Assembly: GCA_036397255.1 (NCBI GenBank)
Contig: DASWJH010000014.1
Coordinates: forward strand, 1-36,220
Reading direction: 5' to 3'
DNA from: Nitrospiria bacterium
GTDB lineage: Bacteria > Nitrospirota > Nitrospiria > DASWJH01
DNA: 36,220 nucleotides
The notes under the pieces were generated by a model. The model searched no databases and was not told where the DNA came from. It worked only from the letters and a program-made list of their open reading frames with translations. The position numbers and the translations under genes were made by a program. Shown here one piece after another: positions 5,866-21,718 of this stretch (position 1 is the first letter of the stretch; each line of letters starts with the position of its first letter).

Positions 5866-5868
5866 CAA

Positions 5869-6312: not shown

Positions 6313-6458
6313 TTCTCTTTCCTCCTCCATTTTCTTTCTCGTTATCTTAACCAAACAATTTTGTTTTCAATTCCAAATACCAATTTTGCTTCGGGTTTGT
6401 TTTGTCTCTTTTGAAAGAATCACAAGAAAAGCCATTGGCAGATGGAAACTTCAACCCC

Positions 6459-6608: not shown

Positions 6609-6617
6609 CTCTTGTTC

Positions 6618-7211
6618 ATGGCTTTTTCGATGCATCCTACCTTTCCCTGGACCGACCTGAAGGGCCTTTTAACCCTTGACAAAAAAAAAGGCCTTAACCC
6701 TTTATTCCGACTGATCCTGACATCGGATGGAACGGTCACCCGGTTAATTGAAATTTTAACCCTTCATCCGGTCACCGTGGAAATGATTTCCCATAAAAGG
6801 ACCCCCTTAGAAAAAGAAGAGGCCTATTTTCTTGAACTGGACCCTGGAAAACCAGCCATTGAACGAACCGTTTGGCTCCGGGTTTTGAACCAACGCTTGG
6901 TTTTTGCCACCTCCTTTATTCCCATGGAAGATTTAAACCAAACCGTTTATGATAGGCTGGAAGAAAGTAAAAAATCTTTGGGAACCCTCATATCCGAATT
7001 TCATTTCCCGGTCATTCGGGATAAAATGAGTTTCTGCCAGGTTCTATGTCCTGAAATCGCACAGGCATTGGAAAAGCCCCCTTTAGAGCTTTTCTGGGCC
7101 CGACGTTACCGTTTAAAAATAGAAAAGGTTCTTCAGGCTTTTATTATCGAGGTTTTTTCACCCCATTTAGAGACAACTCCCTATCCTCCAAACGGCTCTT
7201 TATTAAAATGA
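6618..7211 (+). CDS. ubiC: Chorismate lyase-like protein (UbiC/DUF98 type)
   Basis: About 197 aa. The layout FRLILTSDGTVTRLIEILTLHPVTVEMI...LDPGKPAIERTVWLRVLNQRLVFATSFIPMEDL fits the chorismate pyruvate-lyase superfamily, which removes pyruvate from chorismate to give 4-hydroxybenzoate. The conserved Arg of the ERTVWL strand and the SxFIP strand are in the expected order. The assignment is strengthened by the genes that follow at once: a UbiA-type prenyltransferase and a UbiD-type decarboxylase, the next steps for 4-hydroxybenzoate. Start uncertain: ATG at 6618 or 6630. Neither has a clear SD, and the predicted transcription start near 6614 argues against the TTG at 6612. Cytoplasmic, no signal peptide. 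The symbol marks the reaction, not proven ubiquinone production. Confidence 0.8.
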   Translation: MAFSMHPTFPWTDLKGLLTLDKKKGLNPLFRLILTSDGTVTRLIEILTLHPVTVEMISHKRTPLEKEEAYFLELDPGKPAIERTVWLRVLNQRLVFATSFIPMEDLNQTVYDRLEESKKSLGTLISEFHFPVIRDKMSFCQVLCPEIAQALEKPPLELFWARRYRLKIEKVLQAFIIEVFSPHLETTPYPPNGSLLK

Positions 7212-7254
7212 ACCCTTTGAACCCAACACCTTTTAAAAATGCAGGATATTTTTG

Positions 7255-8142
7255 GTGAGTTCTAACCCCCACTGGAAAACCATTTCAGAGTTAATTCGGT
7301 TGGATCGATCCTATGGAACCCTCCTTCTCCTTCTTCCAACCCTTTGGGCTTTAATCCTGGCAAGTGAGGGCGTTCCCTCCATGAAACTTCTTTTGGTTTT
7401 CACCGTTGGAACATTTCTGATGAGAAGCGCTGGATGTGTTGTGAATGACATGGCAGATCAGAAAATCGACCGGTGGGTAGCTCGCACCAAAGAAAGGCCT
7501 CTCGCCTCTCAACGAATATCACAAAAAGAAGCCCTTATGGTTCTGTTTGTTTTCCTCCTCCTCTCTGCTTCCCTGCTTTTCTTTTTAAACCCACTGACCC
7601 GCTTCCTTAGTTTCGTCGGCCTGGGTTTAGCCATGATTTATCCATTCACGAAAAGGATCACCCATTATCCTCAGTTGGTTCTGGGAATTGCTTTCGCCTG
7701 GGGTCCTCTGATGGCTTGGGCAGCGGTACGAAATTCCATTGAACTGCCTTGTATTTTTATTTTTTTGGCTACTTTATGTTGGACCATGGGATACGACACC
7801 ATCTATGCACTGCTCGACAAAAATGATGATCAGAAGATCGGAATAAAATCCACAGCGATTCTCTTTGGAGAAAAAACCTGGGTTGCACTGGGAACGTTTT
7901 TTGCCCTTACTTTTTTGTTTCTCTTTTGGGTTGGACTCCTGACCCAGCGGACGTTTGTTTATTACGTTTTTCTCTTTTTGATCGCCCCGAGCTTTATTTA
8001 TCAAGTCTACAAAATTAAAACCAACCCGGAATCCCCATTGGCCTTTACCCTTTTTAAATCCCACGTTGGAATTGGGACCTTGGTTTTGATAGGCATCCTT
8101 TTGGATTTTTGGAATCAACAGCAAACCGGAGCATTCCCCTGA
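7255..8142 (+). CDS. ubiA: 4-hydroxybenzoate polyprenyltransferase (UbiA family)
   Basis: About 295-aa integral membrane protein with eight or nine hydrophobic helices. It has both Asp-rich motifs of the family: NDMADQKID near residues 64-72 and YDTIYALLDKNDDQKIG in the second half. These bind the Mg-diphosphate of the polyprenyl donor. GIKSTAILFGE and the early ELIRLDRSYGTLLLLLPTLWAL are typical of 4-hydroxybenzoate prenyltransferases rather than of haem O synthases or MenA. Expected reaction: attaches a polyprenyl chain to 4-hydroxybenzoate at the inner membrane. The start is GTG at 7255 with AGGA 8 nt upstream; the TTG at 7252 is possible. Its stop overlaps the next ATG by one base (TGATG), so it is translationally coupled to the UbiD-like gene. 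Confidence 0.93.
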   Translation: MSSNPHWKTISELIRLDRSYGTLLLLLPTLWALILASEGVPSMKLLLVFTVGTFLMRSAGCVVNDMADQKIDRWVARTKERPLASQRISQKEALMVLFVFLLLSASLLFFLNPLTRFLSFVGLGLAMIYPFTKRITHYPQLVLGIAFAWGPLMAWAAVRNSIELPCIFIFLATLCWTMGYDTIYALLDKNDDQKIGIKSTAILFGEKTWVALGTFFALTFLFLFWVGLLTQRTFVYYVFLFLIAPSFIYQVYKIKTNPESPLAFTLFKSHVGIGTLVLIGILLDFWNQQQTGAFP

Positions 8143-9599
8143 TGCCTTACTCAGACCTTCGCGATTTTTTAAAATTTTTGGAGCAAAAAGGACAGCTTTT
8201 GCGGATTAAATCCGAAATTGATCCCCGCTTAGAAATTACCGAAGTCCTCAATCGCCTGCTGGCAAAAGGGGGTCCGGCGGTCCTATTTGAAAAGGTAAAA
8301 GGACATTCTATTCCCGTGGTGGCAAACCTCTTCGGGACGTTGGAGCGGATCGCCTGGGGGCTGGACACAACAGTGGAGGGCCTGAAGGAAATTGGAGAGT
8401 TTCTAGCTTTTCTACAGCACCCGGAACCTCCAAAAAGTTTGGTGGATGCCGTTAAAAAACTTCCTCTGTACGGTCAGGTATTCACCTTAGCACCCAAAAA
8501 AGTAAAAAAAGCTCCCTGTCAAGAAGTCATCCTAGAAGGAAAGGATATTGATCTTTCCAAATTTCCGATTCTCACCTGCTGGCCCGATGATGCAGCCCCC
8601 CAAATTACATGGTCTTTGGTTATAACCAAACCTCCGGATGATGGCCCCTATAACATCGGGATTTATCGAATGCAGGTCGAAGGGCCAGATCGAACACTGA
8701 TGCGGTGGCTCAAACATCACGGAGGGGCCAAACATTATCGAGCATGGAAAAAAGCGGGGAAAGCCATGCCCGTGGCAGTCGCCATTGGCACCGATCCAGG
8801 AATGATGGTGGCCGCCGTCACGCCGGTTCCTGAACGAATGAGTGAATTCCACTTTGCCGGTCTACTTCGAAAAAAAGCCGTGGAATTGGTTTCTTGCCGG
8901 ACGATTCCTTTAGAGGTCCCGGCAACCAGTGAAATGATATTAGAAGGGGAAATTCATCCCGATGAAGAAGCCCCTGAAGGGCCCCATGGAGATCATACCG
9001 GTTATTATAATTCGGTGGAACCCTTTCCTGTTTTCCGGCTCAAATGTATTACACATCGCCGAAATCCTTACTATTTGACCACCACCACCGGTCGGCCTCC
9101 CCGAGAGGATGCCATGACCGGTCTTGCCCTCAATATTATATTTCTACCCCTTCTTCGGCAACATTTTCCAGAAGTGGTTGATTTTCACCTTCCCATGGAA
9201 GGAGTTTCCTACCGTTTTGCGATTATTTCCATTAAGAAAGAATACCCCGGCCACGCCAAACGCATGATGATGGGACTTTGGGGGTTTTTAAAACAATTTT
9301 TATATGTGAAATTTATCATCATTGTGGATGATGATATCGATGTAAGGAAATGGGAAGATATTATATGGGCCATCGCCACCCGGGTGGATCCAGTCCGGGA
9401 CGTAACCATGATTGACCATAGCCCCATTGATTATCTTGATTTTGCCTCCCCTCTCCCAGAGTTGGGGTCCAAAATGGGAATTGATGCCACCACCAAAATC
9501 CCTCCCGAAACCATTCGGGAATGGGGTAAAAAAATTACCATGGATCCAGAAGTGGTTAAACGGGTTGACCAGCTTTGGAAGGAGCTGGGCCTAAATTAA
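8142..9599 (+). CDS. ubiD: UbiD-family decarboxylase (3-polyprenyl-4-hydroxybenzoate type)
   Basis: 485 aa, close to the usual length of UbiD. UbiD enzymes use prenylated FMN to decarboxylate prenylated 4-hydroxybenzoate. Characteristic segments are NIGIYRMQ (171-178), MRWLKHHGGAKHY, VAIGTDPGMMVAAVTPVP, a Glu-rich DEEAPEGPHGDHTGYY and FRLKCITHRRNPYY. They occur in the family order and contain the Arg and Glu residues that build the active site. The ATG overlaps the ubiA stop (TGATG) and has GGAG about 10 nt upstream, so I reject the TTG at 8109, which would overlap ubiA by 34 bases. No ubiX (prenyl-FMN synthase) is in this window; it must be elsewhere. Third gene of a chorismate-to-polyprenylphenol operon. 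Confidence 0.93.
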   Translation: MPYSDLRDFLKFLEQKGQLLRIKSEIDPRLEITEVLNRLLAKGGPAVLFEKVKGHSIPVVANLFGTLERIAWGLDTTVEGLKEIGEFLAFLQHPEPPKSLVDAVKKLPLYGQVFTLAPKKVKKAPCQEVILEGKDIDLSKFPILTCWPDDAAPQITWSLVITKPPDDGPYNIGIYRMQVEGPDRTLMRWLKHHGGAKHYRAWKKAGKAMPVAVAIGTDPGMMVAAVTPVPERMSEFHFAGLLRKKAVELVSCRTIPLEVPATSEMILEGEIHPDEEAPEGPHGDHTGYYNSVEPFPVFRLKCITHRRNPYYLTTTTGRPPREDAMTGLALNIIFLPLLRQHFPEVVDFHLPMEGVSYRFAIISIKKEYPGHAKRMMMGLWGFLKQFLYVKFIIIVDDDIDVRKWEDIIWAIATRVDPVRDVTMIDHSPIDYLDFASPLPELGSKMGIDATTKIPPETIREWGKKITMDPEVVKRVDQLWKELGLN

Positions 9600-9601
9600 A
9601 A

Positions 9602-10426
9602 ATGGTCCGTTTGGTTACCGTCCTCATACTTTTCCCGACTCTTTTGATGATTTATTTCACTATGACCGGGTGCACCAGTACGCCCCATGACATGGTCTGG
9701 GTTCCCGGTGGGCCTTTTATCATGGGAACCCATGAAGTAGACACCGAGGGGAAAGCACTGGAGTTAGGAATTGTGAAACCCTGGTTTTCAGATGAACACC
9801 CTTCCCACAAGGTTACCCTGGATCCTTATTATATTGATCGTTATGAGGTAACACAGGGTGAGTACGGCCAGTTCGTCTCCAAAACAAACAAACGTCCTCC
9901 AGCAGACTGGAGTGGAAGAAGATCTCCCCCAGATCGGGAACGCCATCCCGTGGTTTTCGTCAGTTGGCGGAACGCAAGCGACTATTGTAAATGGAAGGGT
10001 AAACGGCTCCCGAATGAAGCAGAATGGGAAAAGGCAGCGAGAGGAAATGATGAAAGAATTTACCCCTGGGGAAACACCTTTGACCAAAACCGCTCCAATA
10101 TCGGGGGTTTCATTGGAAAAACCCTTCCGGTGGGAAGTTATGAAAATGGAAAAAGCCCCTACGGCGCATACGATATGATCGGAAACGTTTGGGAATGGAC
10201 CTCCGACTGGTATCAGGCCTACCCGGGAAATACTGAAAATTCTGAGGATTTTGGGGAAAAATTCAAAGTGTTACGGGGAAGTTCCTGGGCCGGGGTGGGG
10301 CATTTCCCGGGAGAGGAAGCCGGAAAAATCCTAGCCCATAATTCCCGTGTGACCTTTCGTCTTTTTTCAAACCCGGAGGAAAGTGAATTAAATGATGTGG
10401 GTTTTCGCTGTGCGAAATCAGCCTGA
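9602..10426 (+). CDS. SUMF1/FGE-sulfatase-domain lipoprotein
   Basis: About 274 aa. A lipoprotein signal ends in the lipobox TMTGC at about residue 24. The remainder is a single SUMF1-type domain (MVWVPGGPFIMGT...YYIDRYEVTQGEYGQF...VSWRNASDYCKWKGKRLPNEAEWEKAARG...YGAYDMIGNVWEWTSDWY...VLRGSSW...VGFRCAKSA). True formylglycine-generating enzymes carry two catalytic cysteines after the RGGS motif. Here that segment reads RGSSWAGVG without Cys, so it is probably not an FGE but a scaffold or ligand-binding relative. Start ATG at 9602; AAGGAG is 17 nt upstream, rather far, so translation may depend on the ubiD-like gene whose stop is 2 nt away. It overlaps the oppositely oriented cytochrome gene by 9 bases at the 3' ends. 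Confidence 0.88.
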   Translation: MVRLVTVLILFPTLLMIYFTMTGCTSTPHDMVWVPGGPFIMGTHEVDTEGKALELGIVKPWFSDEHPSHKVTLDPYYIDRYEVTQGEYGQFVSKTNKRPPADWSGRRSPPDRERHPVVFVSWRNASDYCKWKGKRLPNEAEWEKAARGNDERIYPWGNTFDQNRSNIGGFIGKTLPVGSYENGKSPYGAYDMIGNVWEWTSDWYQAYPGNTENSEDFGEKFKVLRGSSWAGVGHFPGEEAGKILAHNSRVTFRLFSNPEESELNDVGFRCAKSA

Positions 10427-11281
10427 CTTACCGCTGTTTCCTTTCTCGGCCTTTGGAATATCGGCCTGGAGGGTTTTTAAGTAAAGGGTAATGGCCAAGG
10501 CATCCTGATCGGGCATGGCAAAATCTGGCATTTTGGTTTCTTTTTTAATGGAGGAAGCATACTGTATCCAACGATAAATCCATTTGGAATTAAACCGCTT
10601 TCCTGCGCGTGATAAATCAGGTCCCACTTCTCCTCCCTCACCATTAATTTTGTGACAGCCCATACAAGCATATTTTTCATTAATAAGGTACGCTCCCTCT
10701 TTAACCAAACGGTCTTTTTCTGCATTTTGAATGCCGTCAAAATCCACATTCACAGGTTTTTGGACCGAACCCTTTTTTTCATGAATTTCTTCAGCTTCCA
10801 CCACCACCTTTTCCGCATCGTTTTTATGAAGGGTTCTGATAAAAGCCACTAAAGACCAAATCTCATCATCCGAAAGGGTGGAACCCCAATAGGGCATCAA
10901 TGTTGAGCCAAAACCATATTCTTCATCCATAACCTTTGCAGGTTTAATGGACCCATCATCCCAAACAACCCCGGATAACCCTTTCTTTATGGCATTAAAG
11001 ATATCGTCATTGCTTGCATCGGCCATATACCGCTCACCCGCATCGGTTAAATCTCTAGGGTGGGGATCCAGATTATCCGCATTAAAGCCTTTTCCGTTGC
11101 CTTTTTCCCCATGACAAGCGGCGCAATAGAAAGAAAAAAGTTTTTTTCCATGGGAAACCTCTTTGCTCTCAAACAGGGCACAGCTTACAAAAAGGGTGGT
11201 AAAAACGCCAAGGAGGGTAAAATAAAGGAAAGGTTTAAATCGTTCAAAGGGTTTTATAGGTTTACTGTAATGGTTAAGCAT
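10418..11281 (-). CDS. Dihaem cytochrome c lipoprotein, last gene of respiratory operon
   Basis: 287 aa. N-terminal hydrophobic helix with lipobox LFVSC (Cys34), so probably membrane-tethered on the periplasmic side. Two cytochrome c domains: CAACH at 53-57 (YCAACHGEKGNGKG, with a probable Met ligand in STLMPYWG) and CMGCH at 206-210 (KYACMGCHKINGEGG, Met in KMPDFAMP). A charged linker of about 45 residues separates the domains. The start is ATG at 11281, inside the end of the preceding gene (8-nt overlap) with AGG as SD, which indicates coupling. Eleventh and last gene of the 20.7-to-10.4 kb operon. Role inferred: electron transfer between the bc/bd-like complex and a periplasmic partner. 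Confidence 0.88.
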   Translation of the reverse strand: MLNHYSKPIKPFERFKPFLYFTLLGVFTTLFVSCALFESKEVSHGKKLFSFYCAACHGEKGNGKGFNADNLDPHPRDLTDAGERYMADASNDDIFNAIKKGLSGVVWDDGSIKPAKVMDEEYGFGSTLMPYWGSTLSDDEIWSLVAFIRTLHKNDAEKVVVEAEEIHEKKGSVQKPVNVDFDGIQNAEKDRLVKEGAYLINEKYACMGCHKINGEGGEVGPDLSRAGKRFNSKWIYRWIQYASSIKKETKMPDFAMPDQDALAITLYLKTLQADIPKAEKGNSGKSG

Positions 11282-12080
11282 TTGATGACCTTTTTCTAAT
11301 TCGACGTATCAAAAACCATTCAAAGAGAAAGGCTCCAGCCACTGCAAGACCTGCATAAAAATAAATCCCTTGATCAGGGAGAGGCTCTGCCCTGAAATAC
11401 CACCAGGAGGAAATAGCCTTTTTACTTCCTTCTTCCCGGTTTTCTCCATCCCAAATGGCAAAAGCTATCTGTTTAAACTCACCGGGTTTGATCAGAACAT
11501 CTTTTTCATCACCGGTTTCCAATTTTCTACTAAAAACAACCCGCCACACCCCATCTTTCCAAACCCCGTGTCCAGTCACATCTTGCTGGCTATGGGCTTT
11601 CAGGGTTCCAAAACCCTTGGCCTGCATATCCATAAACTTATCTTCCTTCCAATACCAAATGTTCACAAAACCACCCTCCACCTGGATCATGGGTTGGGCA
11701 TGGGCAAAATGGGATTTTTCCTCACCCACGGGGAATTCAATGGCAGCCGCATCTTTAGGTCCCTGTACGGGATCCTGGTATTCGAGCAAAATAGCGAGTT
11801 CCTCTCCGTTATGAAGTGATCGAACTTTTACCGTTTTGGCCGTGGGCTCCGAATACAGCCTCGGCTCCCAATGAACCTGAGCACTCATGGGAAATTCTAC
11901 AACCTGACCTTTTTCATCCCAAAGGGGTGACATCGGATCATCCCCTGGAACGGGCCCATCGATGAGTTTTGAATAAACCACAACCCCACCTTCCTGGGCC
12001 AATGCTAAACCAGTGTGAAAGGAAAAACCAAAAACCATAAGAGGAATAAATAGGATGAAATTTATTTTTAATTTTTCCAT
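11274..12080 (-). CDS. Ethylbenzene dehydrogenase gamma-like haem-b protein, membrane anchored
   Basis: About 268 aa. Signal peptide (cleavage near LALA/QEG, residue 28), a beta-rich domain and one C-terminal TM helix (about 241-260) followed by a basic tail. The domain (MSAQVHWEPR...VKVRSLHNGEELAILLEYQDP...AAAIEFPV...QPMIQVEGG...VNIWYWKED...GVWRVVFSRKL...KQIAFAIWDG...KKAISSWWYF) follows the haem-binding gamma subunit family of type II DMSO-reductase enzymes (EbdC, NxrC-like). In EbdC a Met and a Lys bind haem b; Met131 and Lys220/221 are the candidates here. No molybdopterin alpha or FeS beta subunit gene is present, so it probably works as a b-haem relay inside the respiratory complex. Start at 12080, one nt after the upstream stop, gives the proper signal peptide. 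Confidence 0.82.
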   Translation of the reverse strand: MEKLKINFILFIPLMVFGFSFHTGLALAQEGGVVVYSKLIDGPVPGDDPMSPLWDEKGQVVEFPMSAQVHWEPRLYSEPTAKTVKVRSLHNGEELAILLEYQDPVQGPKDAAAIEFPVGEEKSHFAHAQPMIQVEGGFVNIWYWKEDKFMDMQAKGFGTLKAHSQQDVTGHGVWKDGVWRVVFSRKLETGDEKDVLIKPGEFKQIAFAIWDGENREEGSKKAISSWWYFRAEPLPDQGIYFYAGLAVAGAFLFEWFLIRRIRKRSSNA

Positions 12081-12081
12081 G

Positions 12082-12819
12082 TTATTCCCACGTTCTCGGC
12101 TCATGTCCTGAGGCACTAAATTCATAATGAATAATTTTCCAAATATCCTCATCCGATAAAGGTTTCCCTCCACGTGCCGGCATTTTTCCCCATCTGGGCA
12201 TGGCCGAGTTCCAGGGCTGCCCCTCCACAGGAAGGCCTACCCCACCATTCTTGATTCTCCAAAACAGATAGGATTCCTGCAACATGGCAATGGTGGTGGG
12301 GTCCTTAAAATTAGCGGGCGGAGGGTTAAACCCGTGGGCCTGAGGTCCTTTTCCGTCCAATTTTCCTCCATGACAGGGCGCGCAATACACGGAAAAAAGC
12401 GCTCCCCCATATTGGATGTTGGTTTTTGTTTTGGGAACCGGATTGGAAAGCCCCATAAATTCTGATGGAGGGGCCGGGTGGACCACGCGCTGTTCCGCAG
12501 GAGGCTGATCGCTGGGGGCCAATTTTCCATACACATTCATTCCGATGAAGAGAGGAAAAATAATCAGGACACCAATACGAAGGAAAGAACCCACCCCCGA
12601 TTGGCCTTTTCCTCCCGCCAAAAATCGGGATATGGGGCCATAAAACTCCTCGCTTTTATCCTCGAAAAGACTAACATAGACCAATATGGCGATTAAGGTC
12701 AGGACCATATACATCATGACCATGCTGAAGGGAAGGGGGGGTTGAATCAGTTTTACGCCAACGTAAACCACGATAAGGAGTATTACAGCCTTTATCAAAA
12801 TGGACAGATTTTTAAACAT
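12082..12819 (-). CDS. Three-TM membrane cytochrome c (monohaem)
   Basis: 245 aa. Two adjacent TM helices (about 8-24 and 33-51), a short charged loop (FEDKSEEFYG), a third helix (about 80-98), then a periplasmic cytochrome c domain with CAPCH at 146-150 (YCAPCHGGKLDGKG) and a probable Met ligand in SAMPRWGKMP. SD AAAAGGAGGGAGG precedes the ATG. Its layout (3 TM helices plus C-terminal haem domain) repeats that of the cytochrome at 17852-18694, each lying in the same half-operon as one bd-like subunit. That suggests the operon contains two related modules. Expected to hold a c-type haem at the periplasmic face beside the bd-like subunit. Confidence 0.87.
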   Translation of the reverse strand: MFKNLSILIKAVILLIVVYVGVKLIQPPLPFSMVMMYMVLTLIAILVYVSLFEDKSEEFYGPISRFLAGGKGQSGVGSFLRIGVLIIFPLFIGMNVYGKLAPSDQPPAEQRVVHPAPPSEFMGLSNPVPKTKTNIQYGGALFSVYCAPCHGGKLDGKGPQAHGFNPPPANFKDPTTIAMLQESYLFWRIKNGGVGLPVEGQPWNSAMPRWGKMPARGGKPLSDEDIWKIIHYEFSASGHEPRTWE

Positions 12820-12848
12820 CTTGTAACCTCCCTCCTTTTACGAACCCC

Positions 12849-13613
12849 TTACATATCTTCCGAAACGGTTTTAAATTGCCCCAAATAGGCGGTAAGGTCA
12901 TTTAAATCTTTTACCGACAACCTGGCACTGAAACCTTTGTGATCGGAGGTTGTGGTTTCTTGTAAAGCGCCCATTAAGAAAATGGCATTCTCTTGCTGTG
13001 ATTTCGGTAAAAGGTCGGAAACCTCTTTTGCCTTGGATTGGGATTTTGTTTCTCCATGGCAATTTCCACAACCGAGTTTACCAAAAACCGCACGCCCTTG
13101 ATTCGGGTCACCCGAAACCATGATCACGGCTTCAGCCGGTTTCACCAGCTCCGAAGGATCCACCGTAACATATTCTTGACCCCCTGTGCTTTGAACAAAG
13201 GCAATCACAGCAAGAAGTTCGTTTTCTGAAAGCCCAATGGGGGGTTTATTGATTGGGGGCATTTGTGCCCCAAAAGCCTTTGGAGGGCTGTATTGATATT
13301 GCTTATAAATAAATGCGCTGGGTTGGGTTAGGCTTTCATAGATAAATTCACGTGAAAGTTTAGCCCCCACTCCGGAAAGATTAGGACAACGTCCCCCCTC
13401 ACCACCAATGGTATGGCAAAGGGCACACTTTCCTTTTCCGAAGAAAATGGCTTGTCCCAGGGAGACCAGGTCTTCTTTGGTCTCAATAGCGGCGAAGTCA
13501 AGGGTTCCTTCGTCCGGGGGTAAAGAAGGCTGGGAAGGAATGGAATAGGCAATGTAAGCAAAAACCAAGAGGACACTGGCCACAAAGAAAAGTGTTTTAA
13601 GGAAATAATGCAT
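12849..13613 (-). CDS. Membrane-anchored dihaem cytochrome c
   Basis: 254 aa. One N-terminal TM anchor (about 5-24, no cleavage motif), then two cytochrome c domains: CALCH at 63-67 (GKGKCALCHTIGGEGG) and CGNCH at 182-186 (KLGCGNCHGETKSQ). Probable distal Met in AQMPP (about 118) for the first haem and in FLMGAL for the second. GGGGGATCC precedes the ATG. It lies between the larger bd-like subunit and the 3-TM cytochrome in the operon, so it is likely a fixed electron-transfer subunit of the same assembly rather than a free carrier. Confidence 0.88.
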   Translation of the reverse strand: MHYFLKTLFFVASVLLVFAYIAYSIPSQPSLPPDEGTLDFAAIETKEDLVSLGQAIFFGKGKCALCHTIGGEGGRCPNLSGVGAKLSREFIYESLTQPSAFIYKQYQYSPPKAFGAQMPPINKPPIGLSENELLAVIAFVQSTGGQEYVTVDPSELVKPAEAVIMVSGDPNQGRAVFGKLGCGNCHGETKSQSKAKEVSDLLPKSQQENAIFLMGALQETTTSDHKGFSARLSVKDLNDLTAYLGQFKTVSEDM

Positions 13614-13657
13614 TGGAGTGGATCCCCCTATTCAAAAAAAACTTGTTCAAATAAAGC

Positions 13658-15463
13658 TCAGACAGAATCTTTTGCCTCCGCCATTGCACCTTCCTGGAGA
13701 CCTGTGTAAGGCTTTTTCTCCCCCCCTTTTTGGGTAGCCAGGGAAGCAACCCAAAAGATAAATGCCACCAGCAAACAAAATATAAAGGTACAAAGCGCCA
13801 TAAAAGCGCCCGCATGACCCAAAGCCGGTGAATAGGCATAGGGGGTCATATCTCGCATCACCCCGTAAATATGCCAGTGAACCCGAGAGGCTGATCGGGC
13901 ATAACCCATTAAGGTCATGGTTAAAATGACAATGACCGCGTTTAAAACCAGGCAGTACTGAGCTCGGGCTGGCATCCGTCCCCAGGTCATTTTAGTGGTC
14001 ATCTTCGCGCTTTTTAAAAGAGCCCCCGTCAATGGGGTAACGGAAATGAGGACAAATAAAACAATAAGAACTTGCGCAACCGAAAACTGGTTAATTCGGA
14101 CAATGGCCGGGACAAAATACCCCCAAACCCCAAGAACAATCACCCCAATCACTGCACCACCGAACAACAGGTACTGCAACCAATCGGCCACTTTGAACCA
14201 TTTTACGATGGGTTCCTTACCCGCCCGCCAATACATCAGAAAGCTGATAAAGGTAACCAGAATCATAATATTCACAACGGTGAGTTTTGCGGACATCACC
14301 CCGAAAACCCCCAAAATCGGATGGTGGGTTCCACCCAACTTTCTCGCTTCCTCAAGGCTGGCCACAAGGCTGTGGGGGGTCATCCACACCGCCAGACAGA
14401 CGATGAGAATGGAAAGCATCATCAACATATATTTCCGATATTTTATTCCACCACCTTCAATTCGATACACCAATCCGGTCCAAAAATAATAGTTGGCCCC
14501 AATAAAGAGGACCCCAATTAAGATGGCTTGAAGAATAAACAACCAAGAAAGAAATCCGCCCATGAGGGTAATCCCCATTTGCTGGTTGTATTCATAAACC
14601 TCCCGCATCAGCCAGTATCCTGCAAAGGGAAGGGGGAGAAGCCCAAAAATCCCGATGAAGTTCCCAATATAACCCATCCAGTCGTAGTGTTCTCTCTCCT
14701 CCTGAGTCTTGGCCCCCAGATATCGGATCCCAGCATAGGCACCGCAAATAAATCCACCCAAAACGATATTTGCAATAAAACGGTGAATATTGACAGGCCA
14801 CCAGGTGGGGTTATGAACAGCCGCCCAGGCTTTTTCCATGGCATTCATGGCTTCGGGAAGGACCACAGGACTCGCCTGGAAGGTGGCCCAGGCGTTTGCG
14901 GTAATCATGATATAAAAACCGAAGACATTGAGCATCAACCCCAGGAAAAGATGGAGCCATTTTCGGTTCATCATGGCATCCCAGCCATACCAATAAAGAT
15001 AAAGAACCGGTGTTTCTAAAAGAAAAAGAATGCCGTAGACCACATAGGAAGGGAAGAAAATATCCGATAAGTATGTAAAGAACTTGGGATAAAGCCCAAT
15101 CAATAAGAAGAGGAGGATTCCTCCAAAAAGAGCCGTTGTTGCATAAGACGCGGTAAGTAGTTTGGTGAATTCCTTCGCCAGTTTGTCAAACCGCATATCC
15201 CCTGTTCGAAATCCGATGAACTCGCAAATAAGGGCAAAGATCGGCACACCCAAAACAAAACCCGCAAACAGGAGATGGATTTGAGCAATAATCCAAATGA
15301 GGTTGCGGCTTCCGATAAAGGGAATATCATTATAGGCAGGACCTGTTGCGGCTTCTTCTTGGGCAAGGCTCGGTTCCGCTAAAACCATAAGCCCTAATAA
15401 AAAAGCAAAACCTGCCATATGCAAGGGGTTAAAAACAGTGAAAATGTTTTTAAACCGTTTCAT
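13658..15463 (-). CDS. Cytochrome bd-like oxidase subunit (CydA-like, long form B)
   Basis: 601 aa, about 14 TM helices. An apparent cleavable signal peptide ends at SLAQ (about residue 35). The core aligns by eye with CydA: His63 in QIHLLFAGFVLG (like the b595 ligand His19 of E. coli), Glu150 in FLLETPVLYLYWYGWD (like Glu107), His227 in WWPVNIHRFIANIVLGGF (like His186) and Met263 in YDWMGYIGN (like Met393). The equivalent of Glu99, eight residues before Glu150, is Val142, and the GRQPW quinol-loop motif is missing. There is no cydB in the window. ATGA overlap with the preceding 91-aa gene. This is the bd-like group seen in Nitrospira. Whether it reduces O2 or passes electrons elsewhere cannot be read from the sequence. 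Confidence 0.85.
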   Translation of the reverse strand: MKRFKNIFTVFNPLHMAGFAFLLGLMVLAEPSLAQEEAATGPAYNDIPFIGSRNLIWIIAQIHLLFAGFVLGVPIFALICEFIGFRTGDMRFDKLAKEFTKLLTASYATTALFGGILLFLLIGLYPKFFTYLSDIFFPSYVVYGILFLLETPVLYLYWYGWDAMMNRKWLHLFLGLMLNVFGFYIMITANAWATFQASPVVLPEAMNAMEKAWAAVHNPTWWPVNIHRFIANIVLGGFICGAYAGIRYLGAKTQEEREHYDWMGYIGNFIGIFGLLPLPFAGYWLMREVYEYNQQMGITLMGGFLSWLFILQAILIGVLFIGANYYFWTGLVYRIEGGGIKYRKYMLMMLSILIVCLAVWMTPHSLVASLEEARKLGGTHHPILGVFGVMSAKLTVVNIMILVTFISFLMYWRAGKEPIVKWFKVADWLQYLLFGGAVIGVIVLGVWGYFVPAIVRINQFSVAQVLIVLFVLISVTPLTGALLKSAKMTTKMTWGRMPARAQYCLVLNAVIVILTMTLMGYARSASRVHWHIYGVMRDMTPYAYSPALGHAGAFMALCTFIFCLLVAFIFWVASLATQKGGEKKPYTGLQEGAMAEAKDSV

Positions 15464-15735
15464 TTGTCACCCCCCTTTTGGGAATCTTTTTCCTTTGGGT
15501 TCTTTTCTTTTCCCTCTTTTTCCTTTTCTACTATGTTTTCTTCCACTTGAGTTAAAATCCCTTCGACCGTCAAAATAGCTTCTTCAGGCTCAAGCACCTT
15601 AATTACCTCTTCTTCATCCCCTTCCTGATGTTTGCTGAAATGCACAGGCAAAAAAATCCAAAACAAAAAAACCGTAAAAAGAGAAATGCTCAAAAAAACG
15701 GTGAGGGTTAACCCCTGGTCTTTTGGAATACTCAT
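15460..15735 (-). CDS. Small single-TM protein with acidic/basic tail
   Basis: 91 aa, not recognised. One TM helix (about 9-30, LTVFLSISLFTVFLFWIFLP) is followed by HFSKHQEGDEEE and a tail of about 50 residues rich in Glu and Lys that ends in repeated KEKE/KGGDK patterns. The stop codon overlaps the start of the long bd-like gene (ATGA), and the gene sits between cytochrome b and that subunit, so tightly coupled synthesis is likely. Its place and size recall small accessory subunits of oxidases (CydX-like or CcoQ-like in role), but I see no sequence match to them. Inferred: assembly or stabilising subunit of the complex. The start ATG at 15735 has only a G-rich stretch upstream as SD. Confidence 0.7.
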   Translation of the reverse strand: MSIPKDQGLTLTVFLSISLFTVFLFWIFLPVHFSKHQEGDEEEVIKVLEPEEAILTVEGILTQVEENIVEKEKEGKEKNPKEKDSQKGGDK

Positions 15736-15809
15736 GGAATCAAACCCCCAGCCCCTATTTCAAATTTGATTTCCAAAGGTTTTTTTATATTTTCCCCTTC
15801 CAGTTTCAT

Positions 15810-16883
15810 TTAATGGTTCTCTCGACTGAGAATAGCCAGCCATGTGAGAACAGCAATTGAAATCATGGTTAGGCTCCATCCCATAATGGCGAAAGGGCGT
15901 TTCTTGAGATGACGTTCAGGGCTTACGTTAAGAAACGGAAGAAGAACCAAAACCAAGGCAAAAAGGCCGGGAATTCCAACCGCTCCCATAAAACTCCCGA
16001 ATTCTCCCGAAAAAATGGGAATGCGCAAAAGTTGAAACAGGAACAGAAAATACCATTCGGGCTCGGGGTTAAAATCCGAGGCCTCTGGAGAAGCTTCTTC
16101 CATTAAATGAACAGGCTCGATAAAGGTCATTAAAACAATCAGGACAAACACCACTCCCATGGCCACAATATCTTTATAAACCTGAGTGGGAAAGAAATAC
16201 TCGGATTTTTTTTCAAGTTCCTCCTTGGAACCCTTAAAAGGACCTGCGGGACCAGCCCTTCGGAATAAAAACACGTGCAATCCAGCCAATCCCATAAGAG
16301 AAAGGGGAAGAATCATGACATGAATCACATAAAAACGGTTCAAGGTTTGGGCTCCTGGAATAGCCCCCCCTTTTAAAAACCTTCCCATGAAATCGCCCAA
16401 AATAGGAATTTTGTCAAAAATTTCCACGCCAACCGTGGTTGCCCAATAAGCCCGCTGATCCCACGGAAGCAGGTAACCCGTAAAACCGAAGCCCAAGACC
16501 AAACTTAGAAGAACCAAACCCACCAACCAAACCATCTCCCGTGGTTTTTTGTAGGCCCCCCACAAAAAAACCTGAGACATATGAATGACCGCCATGATCA
16601 CCATGGCCGATGATCCCCAAAAATGAAAGCTGATGATAAACCAGCCATAGGGAAGTTCGTTAATAATGTATTGGGTGCTATCATAGGCATGATCGGCAGA
16701 GGGGGTGTAATAAAACATGAGCATGATGCCCGTGAGGACTTGAAGGGAAAAAATAAACAGAAGGCAGGATCCGAAGGTATAGGCATACCGGGCCCCACCA
16801 GGGATGGGCTCGTTGAGCATCTTGGCTTGGAGCTGTTTTAAATCAATCCGCTCGTCAACCCAGTTATAAATCTTTTCAAACAT
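15810..16883 (-). CDS. Cytochrome b of a Rieske/cytochrome b complex (fused b6-subunit IV type)
   Basis: 357 aa, seven or eight TM helices. The haem ligand pairs are His87/His101 (13 residues between) and His188/His203 (14 residues between). The 14-residue spacing in the second pair is the b6f-type pattern, against 13 in proteobacterial and mitochondrial bc1. The Qo-site motif PEWY is at 275-278 (NPEPEWYFLFLFQLLR). The length equals b6 plus subunit IV joined rather than a 400+ aa bc1 cytochrome b. Expected role: quinol oxidation at Qo and electron bifurcation to the Rieske protein and the b haems, in the inner membrane. It starts 3 nt after the Rieske stop codon. No separate cytochrome c1 gene with a typical c1 fold is visible; the 3-TM or dihaem cytochromes may fill that place. 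Confidence 0.95.
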   Translation of the reverse strand: MFEKIYNWVDERIDLKQLQAKMLNEPIPGGARYAYTFGSCLLFIFSLQVLTGIMLMFYYTPSADHAYDSTQYIINELPYGWFIISFHFWGSSAMVIMAVIHMSQVFLWGAYKKPREMVWLVGLVLLSLVLGFGFTGYLLPWDQRAYWATTVGVEIFDKIPILGDFMGRFLKGGAIPGAQTLNRFYVIHVMILPLSLMGLAGLHVFLFRRAGPAGPFKGSKEELEKKSEYFFPTQVYKDIVAMGVVFVLIVLMTFIEPVHLMEEASPEASDFNPEPEWYFLFLFQLLRIPIFSGEFGSFMGAVGIPGLFALVLVLLPFLNVSPERHLKKRPFAIMGWSLTMISIAVLTWLAILSRENH

Positions 16884-16886
16884 GAG

Positions 16887-17837
16887 CTATAAAATCCGGA
16901 TAACGTGAGTCCGTCCCGCCTTATATTCGGCGTCAATCACCTCTACGGTTCCCCCGGGACTCACTTTGGTGGGCATTATATCGAGGGGACGGGGGGCAGG
17001 TCCATCCAGCACTTCCCCGTCTGGGCCATAAATGCTGAGGTGGCAGGGGCACCAAAACACCCTTCCAAAGCGTTTATGATTTTCTTTCCAGCGGTAAGCA
17101 CAACCTAAATGTGGACATTTTCCAGAGAAAACGGTGAATTCAGAATCTGCATCATTCTCCCAAATCACCTTTCCATCGGTACCATGAAACTCCAGGGCTT
17201 TGCTTCCGTAGAGTTTCTCTCTTAGGTTGATCACCTTTTCTTTGAGATTATCCGATGTCCTAACCACCCAATGAGACTTTTTAAATTTCCGGACCAGGTA
17301 GCCCTCTTTAATTTCACGCTCGAAATGGACAAGTTTTGGAACATCCGTTTCTGGAAATTGTTGTGCCCTTGCAACGGTAAACCAGGAGTTATTAAATGGT
17401 TGATAGAGTGGGTGAATCAGATACCGAATAATGGGGTAAACCAGGGGAAGGGCAATCACAACCCCAATGGCATGGGTAAACTTCATAAAAAAAGAACGTC
17501 GGGACAAATCTTTTTCCAGTTCTGGAAGGGGAACCAGTGTCTCACCGGGGGAAACCTCCTCCATCCGGCGCTCCAATCCCGCAATTTCAACTTCACTGAG
17601 TTGGACAAAATTCTCCCGTTTCAGCTTGGGAAAATTTGAAAACTCCGATGAAGAACAACTTAAAACCGCATGTTCTCCCTCCACCGCAACCAAATTAAAA
17701 GGGACCACCCATTCCTGGCTTCTTCCCCGAACCACAATGTGGCTGATATTTTTGGTAATAGGATCGGCGATAACCCTTGAAATTTCACCGACCTCTTCAT
17801 CACCACATCTGACTTTGAATTTAATTTTAATGGACAT
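16887..17837 (-). CDS. Rieske iron-sulphur protein with N-terminal PRC-barrel-like domain
   Basis: 316 aa. Residues 1-75 look like a PRC-barrel (CGDEEVGEISRVIADPITKNISHIVV...WVVPFNLV...LSCSSSEFSNFP). A linker of about 35 residues follows. Then a twin-arginine motif SRRSFFMKF (112-120) directly precedes a TM helix (about 120-141), as in Tat-inserted Rieske proteins. The C-terminal Rieske domain has CPHLGC (241-246) and CPCH (263-266), giving the 2 Cys + 2 His cluster ligands and the two disulphide cysteines. GPDGEVLDGPAPRPL is also typical. So a cytoplasmic barrel, an uncleaved anchor and a periplasmic 2Fe-2S domain are joined in one chain. The start ATG at 17837 lies 14 nt after the preceding cytochrome gene. 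Forms the bc core with the cytochrome b encoded next. Confidence 0.93.
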   Translation of the reverse strand: MSIKIKFKVRCGDEEVGEISRVIADPITKNISHIVVRGRSQEWVVPFNLVAVEGEHAVLSCSSSEFSNFPKLKRENFVQLSEVEIAGLERRMEEVSPGETLVPLPELEKDLSRRSFFMKFTHAIGVVIALPLVYPIIRYLIHPLYQPFNNSWFTVARAQQFPETDVPKLVHFEREIKEGYLVRKFKKSHWVVRTSDNLKEKVINLREKLYGSKALEFHGTDGKVIWENDADSEFTVFSGKCPHLGCAYRWKENHKRFGRVFWCPCHLSIYGPDGEVLDGPAPRPLDIMPTKVSPGGTVEVIDAEYKAGRTHVIRIL

Positions 17838-17851
17838 AATTTATTTGAATA

Positions 17852-18694
17852 TTAATGTTTGTTATGATCGTGGTGAATCAACTTAGGCGTATCCACTTTG
17901 GGGTTTTTCAAAGTGAGAAGGTAGGCAACGAGCGCATCTAACTCGGATTCATCCATTAGCTCGGAATAATTATCGGGCATGGTCTCCTTTTTATGTTCCT
18001 TCTCAAACCCCTCGGAATAAGCGAAATTAGGCTCAAAAACTTTCCTTTTAATTTCCTCTGCAGGAACGATATTTCCAATATTATCCATTTTGGGTCCCCG
18101 CTTTTTAGTTCCCCCTTTTCCCCCGATCTTGTGGCAGTTATAACACTCATAAAGGTCATACACCTCCGCGCCGTAAGCGATGGTTTCTTCGGGACTCAGT
18201 TTTTCCCCGGGTTTCCGTTTTTTTTTCATAATATCTTCTAAATTGAGTTTAAGATCCCCACCCCCCTCCAACTGTTCTAACCTGACGAGTAGGGTATCTG
18301 CTTTTTCCGTTAATTCCTGCGATTTTGCATAAAGATCATGAAGAGACACCGCTTGAGAACCTTCGTATTTTTTAAGGATTTTTGCAATTTTTCCTTTTTC
18401 CCACTCAGGATCATATTGTGGAAGAAGGTTTGCGGCGACGGTAAACACCGCAGTACAAACGATGAAAAATACGGCTATTCCAATGGTCGCTTTTACCCCC
18501 GAAAATTCCTTCATGGGGGGCTTATCCAACAGGACAAAAACCATTAATCCCAAAAGCGCATAGAAAGCAAACATGGCCTGAAAGACGAAAGCAAACCCTA
18601 ATAAACCGGAACCAAAAAAAAGGCCAACGCCAATGATCACGGAGGCAATCACTTTCCACTTTAGGATTTCAAACCAACTTTTTGGATGGTCCAT
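17852..18694 (-). CDS. Three-TM membrane cytochrome c (monohaem) with coiled linker
   Basis: About 280 aa. Three TM helices (about 13-33, 36-56, 68-90), an extended charged, probably helical linker (about 95-160, ILKKYEGSQ...LYAKSQELTEKADTLLVRLEQLEGG), and a cytochrome c domain with CYNCH at 184-188 (YECYNCHKIGGKGG). The probable Met ligand is in ETMPDNYS. A His-rich tail (HHDHNKH) ends the protein. The start ATG at 18694 has AAGGA about 10 nt upstream; a TTG at 18703 would sit directly on the SD. It lies between the bd-like subunit A and the Rieske gene. Same architecture as the product of 12082-12819. It may take the place of cytochrome c1 or c-f next to the Rieske/cytochrome b core. Confidence 0.88.
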   Translation of the reverse strand: MDHPKSWFEILKWKVIASVIIGVGLFFGSGLLGFAFVFQAMFAFYALLGLMVFVLLDKPPMKEFSGVKATIGIAVFFIVCTAVFTVAANLLPQYDPEWEKGKIAKILKKYEGSQAVSLHDLYAKSQELTEKADTLLVRLEQLEGGGDLKLNLEDIMKKKRKPGEKLSPEETIAYGAEVYDLYECYNCHKIGGKGGTKKRGPKMDNIGNIVPAEEIKRKVFEPNFAYSEGFEKEHKKETMPDNYSELMDESELDALVAYLLTLKNPKVDTPKLIHHDHNKH

Positions 18695-18716
18695 CTCTTT
18701 CAAGTCCTTCTTTTGA

Positions 18717-20234
18717 TTATTTTGCCTTTGCTTCTCCGCCCACCTTAAGGCTCAACCAAATGGCCAATGTCACCACAGCAAAAAATACAAGGGTCAAAAT
18801 GGTAATCAGAATACTGGAATAGGCCAGGGTAGGGGTAAAAGACTCCTCCGTAAAATCGGGAAGAATTAGATACACATGAAAATACTTTCGAACCAGGGAA
18901 CGAACCGTTCCCATGAGACCCATGGTCCAAATAACCGATAGAGCAAGGAAAATCAATACAAACTGGGAAGTAAAATCGATCTTACCCCACTGAATGGTCC
19001 CTGTCCGAATGGCCCGGTTGTACAAGATATAGTTGACGATGGTCACCAAAACAATCAGGAGGGCAGCGGTATTTTTCGCGGGCATCAATGCTAGGAAACC
19101 CCATTCAGAGGGAAGCTCAGTCTCCTCTGTAGCCATAAACTGGGTAGCGGCAAACCCATGGGGGGTCATCCAAATGGCATTGCCCACCAACACAATGGCA
19201 AATCCCACTTTGACCACCGTCGTAAATCGTTCAGCCCCAGTGATCCGCTTCATGGAAAGCCAAATATAATAGTTACTGCCCAAGAAAATTAAACCCACCA
19301 TGGCTCCTTGCATCTCAAAAAACATGGAAAGCTGATCCGCCATCATATAGGGCCCAATGGAGGCATCAAAATCAAAAAACTCCGCAGCGAGGATGTATCC
19401 AAACAGAGGAAGAAAGAGTAGTGCGCCTACCCCGATTAAATTTCCGATATAGCCCATCCAATCATAGTGGGCTTTTTCCTTCTCTGTTTTTGCAAACATG
19501 TACATATAAGCAGCAATTAGCCCAGTGATAAACCCACCAAACGTGATATTCCCAATGAGTCGGTGGAGGTTTAACGGCATCCAACTATGGTTATACATTA
19601 ACTGCCAAACCGAAGCGGCGGTATCCACAAAGATCCGCCTGTCCATATCCAGCCCTTCGGGGACATCCGGGGGGGTATTCATAAATGAGGTAGGGCCGTC
19701 AATAGCAAAAAGTGTTACTGTTCCAATAATATTCAATAAGACCCCGATTGCAATATGACGCCCCTTTTTATCCCCTGACAAGGAATCCCACGTGTACACA
19801 TAAAAATACAGGACAATGGTCTCTGCAATAAATAGGAGGGGGTATGCAATGGCAAAAATGGGAAAGAAAAGAGAGGTGAGCCAGGAAAAGAAATGAGGAT
19901 AAAGGGCCAGGGCGATCATCACAAAAAGACCACCGGTTAAAGCTGTCATGCTATACAGTATGGCCGTCACCTTGATGACTTCTCTGGCAAGCCGGTCATA
20001 CCGGAGATCTCCTTTCCTCTTTCCCAACCATTCACAGGTTACCGCAAAGATTGGGGCCCCCAAAATAAAAGCTGCAAAGAGGATATGAAGCTGCGCAGCA
20101 ATCCAAACTGCTGTACGGTTTCCGATATACGGAAAATCAATCGGTTTGGGGTCAGGGGGTTGGGCATATACAACCCCTACCGCCAACACGGCAAAAACAG
20201 TTAACCCGCAAAATATTCCGGCCCACTTTTTCAT
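18717..20234 (-). CDS. Cytochrome bd-like oxidase subunit (CydA-like, form A)
   Basis: 505 aa, about 13 TM helices, with a signal-like N-terminus ending near VYAQ (residue 25). CydA-like haem ligands by eye alignment: His50 (AAQLHILFAAFILG), Glu138 (FIAETIVLYFYVYTWD), His224 (WMPLNLHRLIGNITFGGF) and Met260 (HYDWMGYIGN). The Glu99 equivalent is Ala130, and no GRQPW loop is present. It shares IGNRxxxW, HYDWMGYIGN, FLGSNYYIW/FIGANYYFW and WMTPHG/S with the 601-aa paralogue in the same operon, which is about 95 residues longer. The ATG follows the stop of the lipoprotein cytochrome gene with no gap. No CydB partner. Likely an electron-transfer or oxidase subunit of the bc/bd-like complex. Confidence 0.86.
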   Translation of the reverse strand: MKKWAGIFCGLTVFAVLAVGVVYAQPPDPKPIDFPYIGNRTAVWIAAQLHILFAAFILGAPIFAVTCEWLGKRKGDLRYDRLAREVIKVTAILYSMTALTGGLFVMIALALYPHFFSWLTSLFFPIFAIAYPLLFIAETIVLYFYVYTWDSLSGDKKGRHIAIGVLLNIIGTVTLFAIDGPTSFMNTPPDVPEGLDMDRRIFVDTAASVWQLMYNHSWMPLNLHRLIGNITFGGFITGLIAAYMYMFAKTEKEKAHYDWMGYIGNLIGVGALLFLPLFGYILAAEFFDFDASIGPYMMADQLSMFFEMQGAMVGLIFLGSNYYIWLSMKRITGAERFTTVVKVGFAIVLVGNAIWMTPHGFAATQFMATEETELPSEWGFLALMPAKNTAALLIVLVTIVNYILYNRAIRTGTIQWGKIDFTSQFVLIFLALSVIWTMGLMGTVRSLVRKYFHVYLILPDFTEESFTPTLAYSSILITILTLVFFAVVTLAIWLSLKVGGEAKAK

Positions 20235-20732
20235 TTATTTAGCCGATGCTGTTTCAGGAGTAAATTCAGTGGTGAAATCATCATGGGGCGATGGTGTTCC
20301 CCCATGAGAAAAAGCATGCTCGTAGGCCATAACCTTCCAAATCTCTTCCTCACTAAGCTTTTCTTTCCATGGTTTCATTTTCGTTCGGGGAACCCCTTCC
20401 GACACTCTCCAGAACCAGGCGCTGTCAGAATAGAGTTTCATCCGGTCTTGAACACGGAAATCCCTCGCCCCACGCTTGACCGGTTTTCCATCTTTACCAT
20501 GGCAGCTTGCGCAATTCACATCTGGATTTTCTTCCCCAGTAAAGAGGAGCCTTCCTTTTTCAATAATTTCCGGGTCGGTCCACCACCCATCAGGCATATG
20601 CTTATCCGCATAAGCCGCAGGAACTGGGGGTGGAGGTTGAATAGGGCCTTCTCCTCCTCCAGAACAGCCCACACCAATGATCCCTGAAAAGAGGAAGATG
20701 GCACTTAAAACAAAAAATCTCATCGTCTTCAT
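20235..20732 (-). CDS. Monohaem cytochrome c lipoprotein, first gene of respiratory operon
   Basis: 165 aa. Lipoprotein signal with lipobox GVGC (Cys23), a Gly/Pro-rich linker (GGGEGPIQPPPPVP), and one cytochrome c domain with CASCH at 74-78 (VNCASCHGKDGKPVKRG) and a late Met in RTKMKPW as probable ligand. The context WxDPEIIEKGRLLF...WFWRVSEGVP...SEEEIWKVMAYE is typical of small class I cytochromes that dock on oxidases. Start ATG at 20732 with AAAGGAG 13 nt upstream; the next ATG, three codons on, is less well placed. Leads the eleven-gene minus-strand operon; its stop touches the next ATG. Probable membrane-tethered electron carrier on the periplasmic side. Confidence 0.9.
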   Translation of the reverse strand: MKTMRFFVLSAIFLFSGIIGVGCSGGGEGPIQPPPPVPAAYADKHMPDGWWTDPEIIEKGRLLFTGEENPDVNCASCHGKDGKPVKRGARDFRVQDRMKLYSDSAWFWRVSEGVPRTKMKPWKEKLSEEEIWKVMAYEHAFSHGGTPSPHDDFTTEFTPETASAK

Positions 20733-21175
20733 TCGCTTACACAGACTCCTTTCTTTAAAAGTTGTATTTTTTCTGAGGTTTAGTGGAGTTTTCTGTTTGA
20801 CGAGGACACTTTTCCTTATAAATGAATTAAAATCTTATGCGCCTAGGGAAAGCATCATTGGGGTTTGGGAGGCTGAATTTTTTGTTAGTAACCCACCCAC
20901 ATCTACCGTGCACCCGCCTTCTCCATCATTCGCTATCAGACCTAACCAGATACCGCAATATCTTTTGTATTTAATGAGCCTGTTTTCCTCAAACAATTAA
21001 AAATATTTAAATGGATCATCTAAATTCCTCTTTAAAATTTAACCGAATTAAGATTCCCTCTTTATCCATCTGAAAGAGGTCGAAAAATATCATAGGGAAA
21101 AATAGATGTCAAGAAATTTTTAAGGAGAGAAAAAACGCGGGATTGATTTACCTAAAAAGGAATAAAAAGAATTGT
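20733..21175. other. Intergenic region: promoter and long leader of the respiratory operon
   Basis: 443 bases without a credible gene. A promoter-like sequence at 21084-21112 (minus) would give a leader of about 345 nt. A 17-codon open frame (MDKEGILIRLNFKEEFR) begins near the start of that leader but has no SD. I see no strong hairpin with a T-run, so transcription from the CBS/CarboxypepD_reg pair upstream could also read through. Confidence 0.5.
21084..21112 (-). promoter_or_regulatory. Candidate promoter of the bc/bd-like operon
   Basis: Minus strand: TTGACA (21112-21107), 17-nt spacer, TATTTT (21089-21084). Perfect -35, weak -10 (4/6). It lies 64 bp past the stop of the CarboxypepD_reg-like gene and about 345 nt before the first cytochrome gene. 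A second promoter nearer the gene cannot be excluded. Confidence 0.4.
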
Positions 21176-21718
21176 TTAGGACTCTTTTTTAGAGGACTTT
21201 TTTTGCTTGTTTTGAGAAGGATTTTTCTTCTTTTTTAGAAATCCAAAGAAATAAACGACTCCGATTACCAATATCACCGCAATGGCATATAACCAAACCG
21301 GAATCTCTGTCTTTTTTTCAGGAACGCTTGCATCAAAATCGATTTGCACCCTTCGTTCCGTAGTCCGGTCGCTTGGATCAAAAGAAACGATGACTTCTTT
21401 TTTTTGCCCTACCGCGGAGACTTCAACCGTATCCCCTACATCCTCATTATGAAGATGAATAATAACATCATAATAACCATCCTTATTGGTGAAAACGGTG
21501 GAACCCGCCCCATTTCGCTTGGCCACCACGATAACCTTTCCATCCACCAAAGGGTTTCCCTGTTGATCTTTTATAGTTCCATATACTTTAAATCGATGGT
21601 CTATTTCATGGGTCGCCCATAATGAAATAGGAATCACAAAAAAGATTAAAAGGAAAAGACCCCCGAAACCCAGAGCTTTGTATCTGCTGAAAGTGGAGCG
21701 TTTATTTAAATGAAACAT
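21176..21718 (-). CDS. Membrane-anchored CarboxypepD_reg-like domain protein
   Basis: 180 aa. N-terminal signal or anchor (about 15-35, GFGGLFLLIFFVIPISLWATHE). Then a beta-sandwich of the carboxypeptidase regulatory-like/transthyretin type (KVYGTIKDQQGNPLVDGKVIVVAKRNGAGSTVFTNKDGYYDVIIHLHNEDVGDTVEVSA). A C-terminal TM helix (about 142-162) and a very basic tail (KKKKNPSQNKQKKSSKKES) follow. The domain would therefore be exposed in the periplasm with the tail in the cytoplasm. The ATG is 2 nt after the CBS gene stop, so both are probably expressed from the promoter at 22181-22209. No specific function known. Lying upstream of the respiratory operon on the same strand, it could assist its assembly, but that is a guess. 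Confidence 0.72.
   Translation of the reverse strand: MFHLNKRSTFSRYKALGFGGLFLLIFFVIPISLWATHEIDHRFKVYGTIKDQQGNPLVDGKVIVVAKRNGAGSTVFTNKDGYYDVIIHLHNEDVGDTVEVSAVGQKKEVIVSFDPSDRTTERRVQIDFDASVPEKKTEIPVWLYAIAVILVIGVVYFFGFLKKKKNPSQNKQKKSSKKES

Follow-up and report, generated by a model that had tools for sequence, protein, structure and literature searches.

A candidate cytochrome c-fed bd-like oxidase encoded with Rieske and cytochrome b genes in a conserved operon of Nitrospiria

Among the bd-family oxygen reductases, Murali et al. reportedly described the OR-N1 and OR-N2 classes in 2021. Proteins of Nitrospira and Nitrospinota have been classed as OR-N1/OR-N2 CydAA' and treated as oxidases of aerobic nitrifiers (PMC10839748, PMC12342949). 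Cytochrome c, not quinol, is the probable electron donor of these CydAs, and their function and subunit make-up are still without experimental confirmation (PMC10839748). In Nitrospira moscoviensis, Mundinger et al. 2019 described a cluster composed of complex III_1, bd-like_1, bd-like_2, alt_nxrC_1 and several c cytochromes (PMC6606698). The cluster was strongly transcribed on nitrite, and a III-IV supercomplex with possible contact to nitrite oxidoreductase (NXR) was proposed (PMC6606698). Related TO clusters are carried by the Manganitrophaceae (PMC9040806).

We analyzed a window of 36,220 nucleotides from a Nitrospiria bacterium, which is one entire contig of a 3.35-Mb genome that is 97.5% complete. 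Eleven open reading frames lie on the minus strand at 10418-20732, and checking their coordinates bore out the preliminary description of one-strand genes with small gaps and several overlaps. There is no gap at the 20234/20235 junction of cA and CydA1, the small transmembrane (TM) gene and CydA2 share an ATGA overlap at 15460-15463, the EbdC/NxrC-like gene and cE overlap by 8 nt at 11274-11281, and the largest intergenic gap is 74 nt. Transcription would begin with cA (20235-20732), a monohaem c cytochrome with a lipoprotein-like signal, followed by the bd-like subunit CydA1 (18717-20234), the three-TM monohaem c cytochrome cB (17852-18703), a Rieske 2Fe-2S protein (16887-17837) and a cytochrome b of the fused b6 plus subunit IV type (15810-16883). 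Next come a conserved single-TM protein of 91 aa (15460-15735), the second bd-like subunit CydA2 (13658-15463), the membrane-anchored c cytochrome cC (12849-13613) and the three-TM monohaem c-type cytochrome cD (12082-12819). The last two genes encode an EbdC/NxrC-like haem-b subunit with a signal peptide and one C-terminal TM segment (11274-12080) and cE, a periplasmic dihaem c-type cytochrome with an N-terminal anchor or signal (10418-11281). The most plausible start of the EbdC-like gene is the ATG at 12080, where the predicted signal peptide begins MEKLKINFILF, so it is separated from the preceding gene by a 1-nt gap and does not overlap it.

Family scans and motif counts agreed with the gene contents that had been named earlier. 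Pfam and NCBIfam matches comprised Cyt_bd_oxida_I (both CydAs), Cytochrome_B, Rieske, Cytochrom_C/CBB3, EB_dh and TIGR03477, and the scans assigned all five c cytochromes to class I. These five proteins hold seven CXXCH motifs: one each in cA, cB and cD, and two each in cC and cE. Promoter- and terminator-like sites at the operon were no more frequent than in shuffled sequence; the spacing and synteny of the genes suggest that they are transcribed together.

The N. moscoviensis CIII_1 cluster (L094) matches all eleven genes, their order and their domain content. In both genomes a membrane-anchored NxrC-like subunit is encoded downstream of CydA2 and two c cytochromes, and by synteny the EbdC/NxrC-like protein is the ortholog of alt_NxrC_1. 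The operon is a new member of this Nitrospira-type system, which is known but has never been purified. The loci differ in CydA1, which has 505 aa here as against open frames of about 570-590 aa in the N. moscoviensis type. CydA1 of Nitrospira-like genomes at first seemed to lack its C-terminal third, but the difference proved to be an insertion, not a replacement. The organisms differ too, as N. moscoviensis oxidizes nitrite with NXR whereas the present host has no NXR. The TO_2 operons of Ca. Manganitrophaceae (L153, L155) share a cA-like c cytochrome, CydA2 with a c domain, cD, NxrC, Rieske and cytochrome b, but have two antiporter-like subunits in the place of CydA1 (PF00361, tested on L153), a split cytochrome b and a tetrahaem c cytochrome. 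The bd-like_3/TO_1 cluster, of which the host has a copy on contig C6 (L058), shares the CydA-c-c-NxrC module order, but it lacks the bc genes, has Gln-His (QH) in place of a His-His (HH) pair, and its NxrC carries two c haems.

To assess conservation, we compared 20 loci of the class and a second set of 80 loci from named genomes, counting gene order only where a named locus extended at least 9.9 kb downstream of CydA1 (58 loci). The order cA-CydA1-cB-Rieske-cytochrome b-CydA2-cC-cD-EbdC-cE was found on one strand in 54 of the 58, including N. moscoviensis, a recurrence among independently named loci that is not attributable to chance. A small TM gene was detectable in 45 of the 54, and the 20-locus set showed the same order across four families. 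A 300-aa fusion of the small TM protein in Nitrospira was dismissed as a stop-to-stop artefact of high-GC DNA. The operon is also probably longer than eleven genes: orthologs of the minus-strand gene at 21176-21718, a single-TM protein with a carboxypeptidase-regulatory-like domain, precede the operon in most relatives of both sets (13 matches among the 20 loci and 43 among the 80), and such a protein also occurs inside TO_2-like operons (L153, L155), making this gene a probable twelfth member. The preliminary description had named related clusters in Nitrospira and Ca. Manganitrophus and supposed a variant of a known but little-studied system, against which scattered genes in close relatives would have spoken. 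It was borne out on these points: the gene order is kept, N. moscoviensis has the same cluster, for which a supercomplex was already proposed in 2019 (PMC6606698), and TO_2-like operons share parts of it (PMC9040806).

The two CydAs are paralogs with 37% identity that belong to separate, well-supported tree groups. By profile alignment, H19, H186 and E107 of E. coli CydA correspond to H50, H224 and E138 of CydA1, and by profile and paralog alignment to H63, H227 and E150 of CydA2. The alignment to E. coli CydA revealed conservation of neither the canonical E99 position nor the quinol-binding Q-loop, and no alignment was obtained for the C-terminal half of either protein. The Q-loop, E99 and CydB partner of a canonical CydAB quinol oxidase are all missing. 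The combination observed, with H19, H186 and E107 equivalents but no Q-loop or CydB, is that of the OR-N type, and the OR-N1/OR-N2 pair of Nitrospira is likewise without both. CydA1 and CydA2 correspond to OR-N1 and OR-N2, an assignment made from synteny and later papers. Structure models of the two CydAs were of moderate confidence (mean pLDDT 61 and 68), and the top ten structure matches of each were bd subunit I chains. In the search of solved structures the only matches were distant bd oxidases, and the complex itself had no solved relative among them.

Aligning 38 bd-like proteins separated the paralogs further. CydA2 has a His380-His381 pair (codons at 14321-14326, minus strand) that is present in all OR-N2-type and TO_2-type rows and missing from every CydA1-clade row. 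At this position most C6-type rows have QH, another operon type has YH, and proteins encoded with an NXR/NAR-like enzyme have TH or IH. CydA2 also retains a larger share of the proposed ligands than does the C6 bd-like protein. In a Nitrospina variant, a residue proposed to ligate copper is reported to have changed from His to Gln (PMC8026999); the His380-His381 contrast would fit this report if the positions are equivalent, and metal binding is a candidate role for the pair. In L038 and L054 the C-terminal end of CydA2 is joined to a cC-like c cytochrome, and CXXCH within the CydA2 frame points to a fusion in L153-L155 as well. Such fusions favor a direct passage of electrons from cytochrome c to CydA2. 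These observations make CydA2 the best candidate for O2 reduction. As CydA1 has no His-His pair and its clade also occurs with molybdoenzymes, the two CydAs should not be treated as equivalent.

The remaining redox proteins are also conserved. Two CXXCH motifs occur in cE in 54/54 orthologs, whereas cC is monohaem in 56 of 57 named orthologs and dihaem here. Several of the operon's c cytochromes are membrane-anchored. Quinone chemistry is expected because the cytochrome b Qo motif PEWY is retained (68/70 open frames of relatives), as are the Rieske boxes, with CPHLGC in 72/74 and the CPCH-S-Y box (CPCHLSIY here) also kept. No gene of the operon matched a cytochrome f or c1 family; the neighboring cB, relatives of which also adjoin CydA1-clade genes outside the class, is a candidate acceptor in their place. 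The Rieske protein has a long N-terminal region that is weakly PRC-barrel-like, but a PRC domain was not accepted with a score below the Pfam cut-off. Nitrospira quinones are methyl-plastoquinones with a potential of about +57 mV (PMC12324825). UbiC-, UbiA- and UbiD-like genes stand in a row at 6612-9599 (plus strand), converging on the operon, and the UbiA-like protein exceeds the TIGR01474 cut-off. This row may be a benzoquinone-type synthesis cluster and is consistent with a benzoquinone-type pool in the host.

Other flanking genes were recorded. A formylglycine-generating-enzyme-like lipoprotein gene (9575-10426, plus strand) converges on the operon, and its relatives also occur near C6-type bd-like clusters (L156-L158, L163). 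At 5404-6354 (minus strand) lie genes for two small monohaem relatives of Leptospirillum cytochrome 579, beside porin-like genes at 2212-3615 and 4035-5210. We dropped the idea that such cytochromes mark the host as an iron oxidizer, as they were present in 15 of 15 sampled genomes of the class.

Targeted searches of the host genome detected neither COX1, and hence no haem-copper oxidase, nor CydB. PF01654 matched three genes only: CydA1, CydA2 and one on contig C6, where a 644-aa CydA of the QH type is encoded with a dihaem c cytochrome, a further c cytochrome and an NxrC-like protein with two CXXCH motifs. The only two molybdopterin-family matches were both NuoG by gene context, from which we conclude that NXR is absent. 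With completeness below 100%, these absences are strong evidence rather than proof. Given that haem-copper oxidase and CydB are missing, the operon is the host's best terminal-oxidase candidate and is probably how the bacterium breathes. A second Rieske/cytochrome b in the host, together with the C6 cluster, could share this work, which counts against a sole role for the operon. Contig C13 encodes a 456-aa protein (19603-20742) with both N- and C-terminal signatures of [NiFe]-hydrogenase large subunits, so H2 is a possible donor.

Our preferred reading, to which we assign a probability of roughly 0.58, is that the operon encodes a c-cytochrome-fed OR-N2 (CydA2) oxidase joined to a bidirectional Rieske/cytochrome b quinone branch, conserved across the class Nitrospiria. 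Electrons from a periplasmic donor would enter through cE, EbdC, cD and cC, a chain passing them to CydA2, which would reduce O2. The cA-CydA1-cB group would connect the c pool with Rieske/cytochrome b. Under a high-potential donor, a share of the electrons would move uphill from cB through Rieske and cytochrome b to the quinone pool and feed reverse transport; under a low-potential donor, the same branch would run forward from quinol to O2. We infer O2 reduction by CydA2, the direction of flow, the physical assembly, the role of CydA1 and the catalytic site from what was observed: gene content and order, the CydA2-c fusions, the Qo and Rieske motifs, the ligand pattern and the lack of other oxidases and NXR.

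The strongest challenge to joint assembly is that complex III and the bd-like oxidase might be two separate, co-transcribed enzymes linked by diffusible cytochromes, with no supercomplex. The evidence for assembly is gene order, CydA2-type modules exist without bc genes (the C6 type), and CydA1-type modules exist with no CydA2 alongside (L039-L041). Yet the interleaving of CydA1, cB, Rieske, cytochrome b, small TM gene and CydA2 is kept across families, and several c cytochromes have membrane anchors. We regard separate enzymes as a serious but minority possibility. Much less can be said for the operon as a docking or electron-accepting station for NXR through its NxrC-like subunit, even though this was proposed for alt_NxrC_1 of N. 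moscoviensis (PMC6606698) and most Nitrospira-type genomes have NXR-like proteins. With NXR absent from the host, the operon there cannot depend on it. Moreover, among 147 genomes of the class, strong NXR-like matches (ORFs of about 1150 aa) were common in Nitrospira-like families, but none occurred in the host, family f7 or G297. An operon-type NxrC ortholog is kept in five genomes without such a match (G161, G231, G263, G302 and G297), and operon genes were directly seen in the first three; in G263 CydA2 carries the c domain as a fusion, and no separate cC was found. This retention argues against docking as a general function, which we consider very improbable.

A further alternative holds that CydA-like proteins are general membrane electron-transfer, perhaps ion-moving, subunits that link periplasmic redox enzymes with quinone, and that another enzyme, such as the C6 bd-like complex, reduces O2. 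The closest CydA1 relatives outside the class (49-57% identical; L039, L040, L041) are encoded with three different molybdenum oxidoreductases, 4Fe-4S subunits and cA- or cB-related c cytochromes, with no NrfD/NarI-type anchor in view. The iron-sulfur protein of L040 scores above the curated cut-off for type II DMSO reductase beta subunits; L041 additionally encodes a cytochrome c554-like tetrahaem protein. Since no other anchor is seen with these enzymes, a role in electron transfer is likelier for CydA1 than one as an oxidase. In L149, L151 and L161, one operon combines a CydA2-like gene with genes for two c cytochromes and for complete NxrA-, NxrB- and NxrC-like proteins; the NxrA/NarG-like enzymes have 1148-1159 aa, and the CydA2-like proteins have lost H63 (His63 to Met) and H364. 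Homologs are found beside NXR/NAR-like and other molybdoenzymes, so homology cannot by itself reveal an oxidase role, and the antiporter-like proteins at CydA1's place in TO_2-like operons point the same way. However, with haem-copper oxidase and CydB missing, O2 reduction in an aerobic cell would have to fall to a bd-like protein, CydA2 has the fuller ligand set compared with the C6 protein, and in published reports aerobic nitrifiers are taken to use OR-N proteins as their oxidases. A role for all CydA-like proteins as general subunits is therefore unlikely in our estimation. A bolder version, in which one assembly splits c-cytochrome electrons between O2 (through CydA2) and quinone (through CydA1, cB, Rieske and cytochrome b) and the CydA1 clade comprises general electron-transfer subunits replacing the NrfD/NarI-type anchors of molybdoenzymes, is in our judgment more doubtful still. 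Taken together, the loci suggest that CydA-like proteins may act as a membrane module for electron transfer, with OR-N2 as its likely oxygen-reducing form.

Further arrangements were observed. L147, L148, L150 and L160 contain another CydA-c-c-NxrC group of the YH type, which in the first three adjoins ABC transporter-like and accessory-like genes. In L152, a short contig carries an OR-N2-like gene that keeps HH and, not far from it, a gene for haem-copper oxidase subunit I.

New here are the host free of NXR and haem-copper oxidase, the ligand contrast between the CydAs, the CydA2-c fusions and the molybdoenzyme neighbors of the CydA1 clade. Compared with OR-N1/OR-N2 as described, the HH pair is confined to CydA2, and the CydA1 clade extends to molybdoenzyme operons. 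The ligand contrast and these neighbors single out particular residues and partners for experiments. The system bears on O2 reduction, and on the uphill transfer of electrons to quinone, in Nitrospira-type lithotrophs, and its occurrence in a genome that lacks NXR, haem-copper oxidase and CydB sets it apart from nitrite oxidation.
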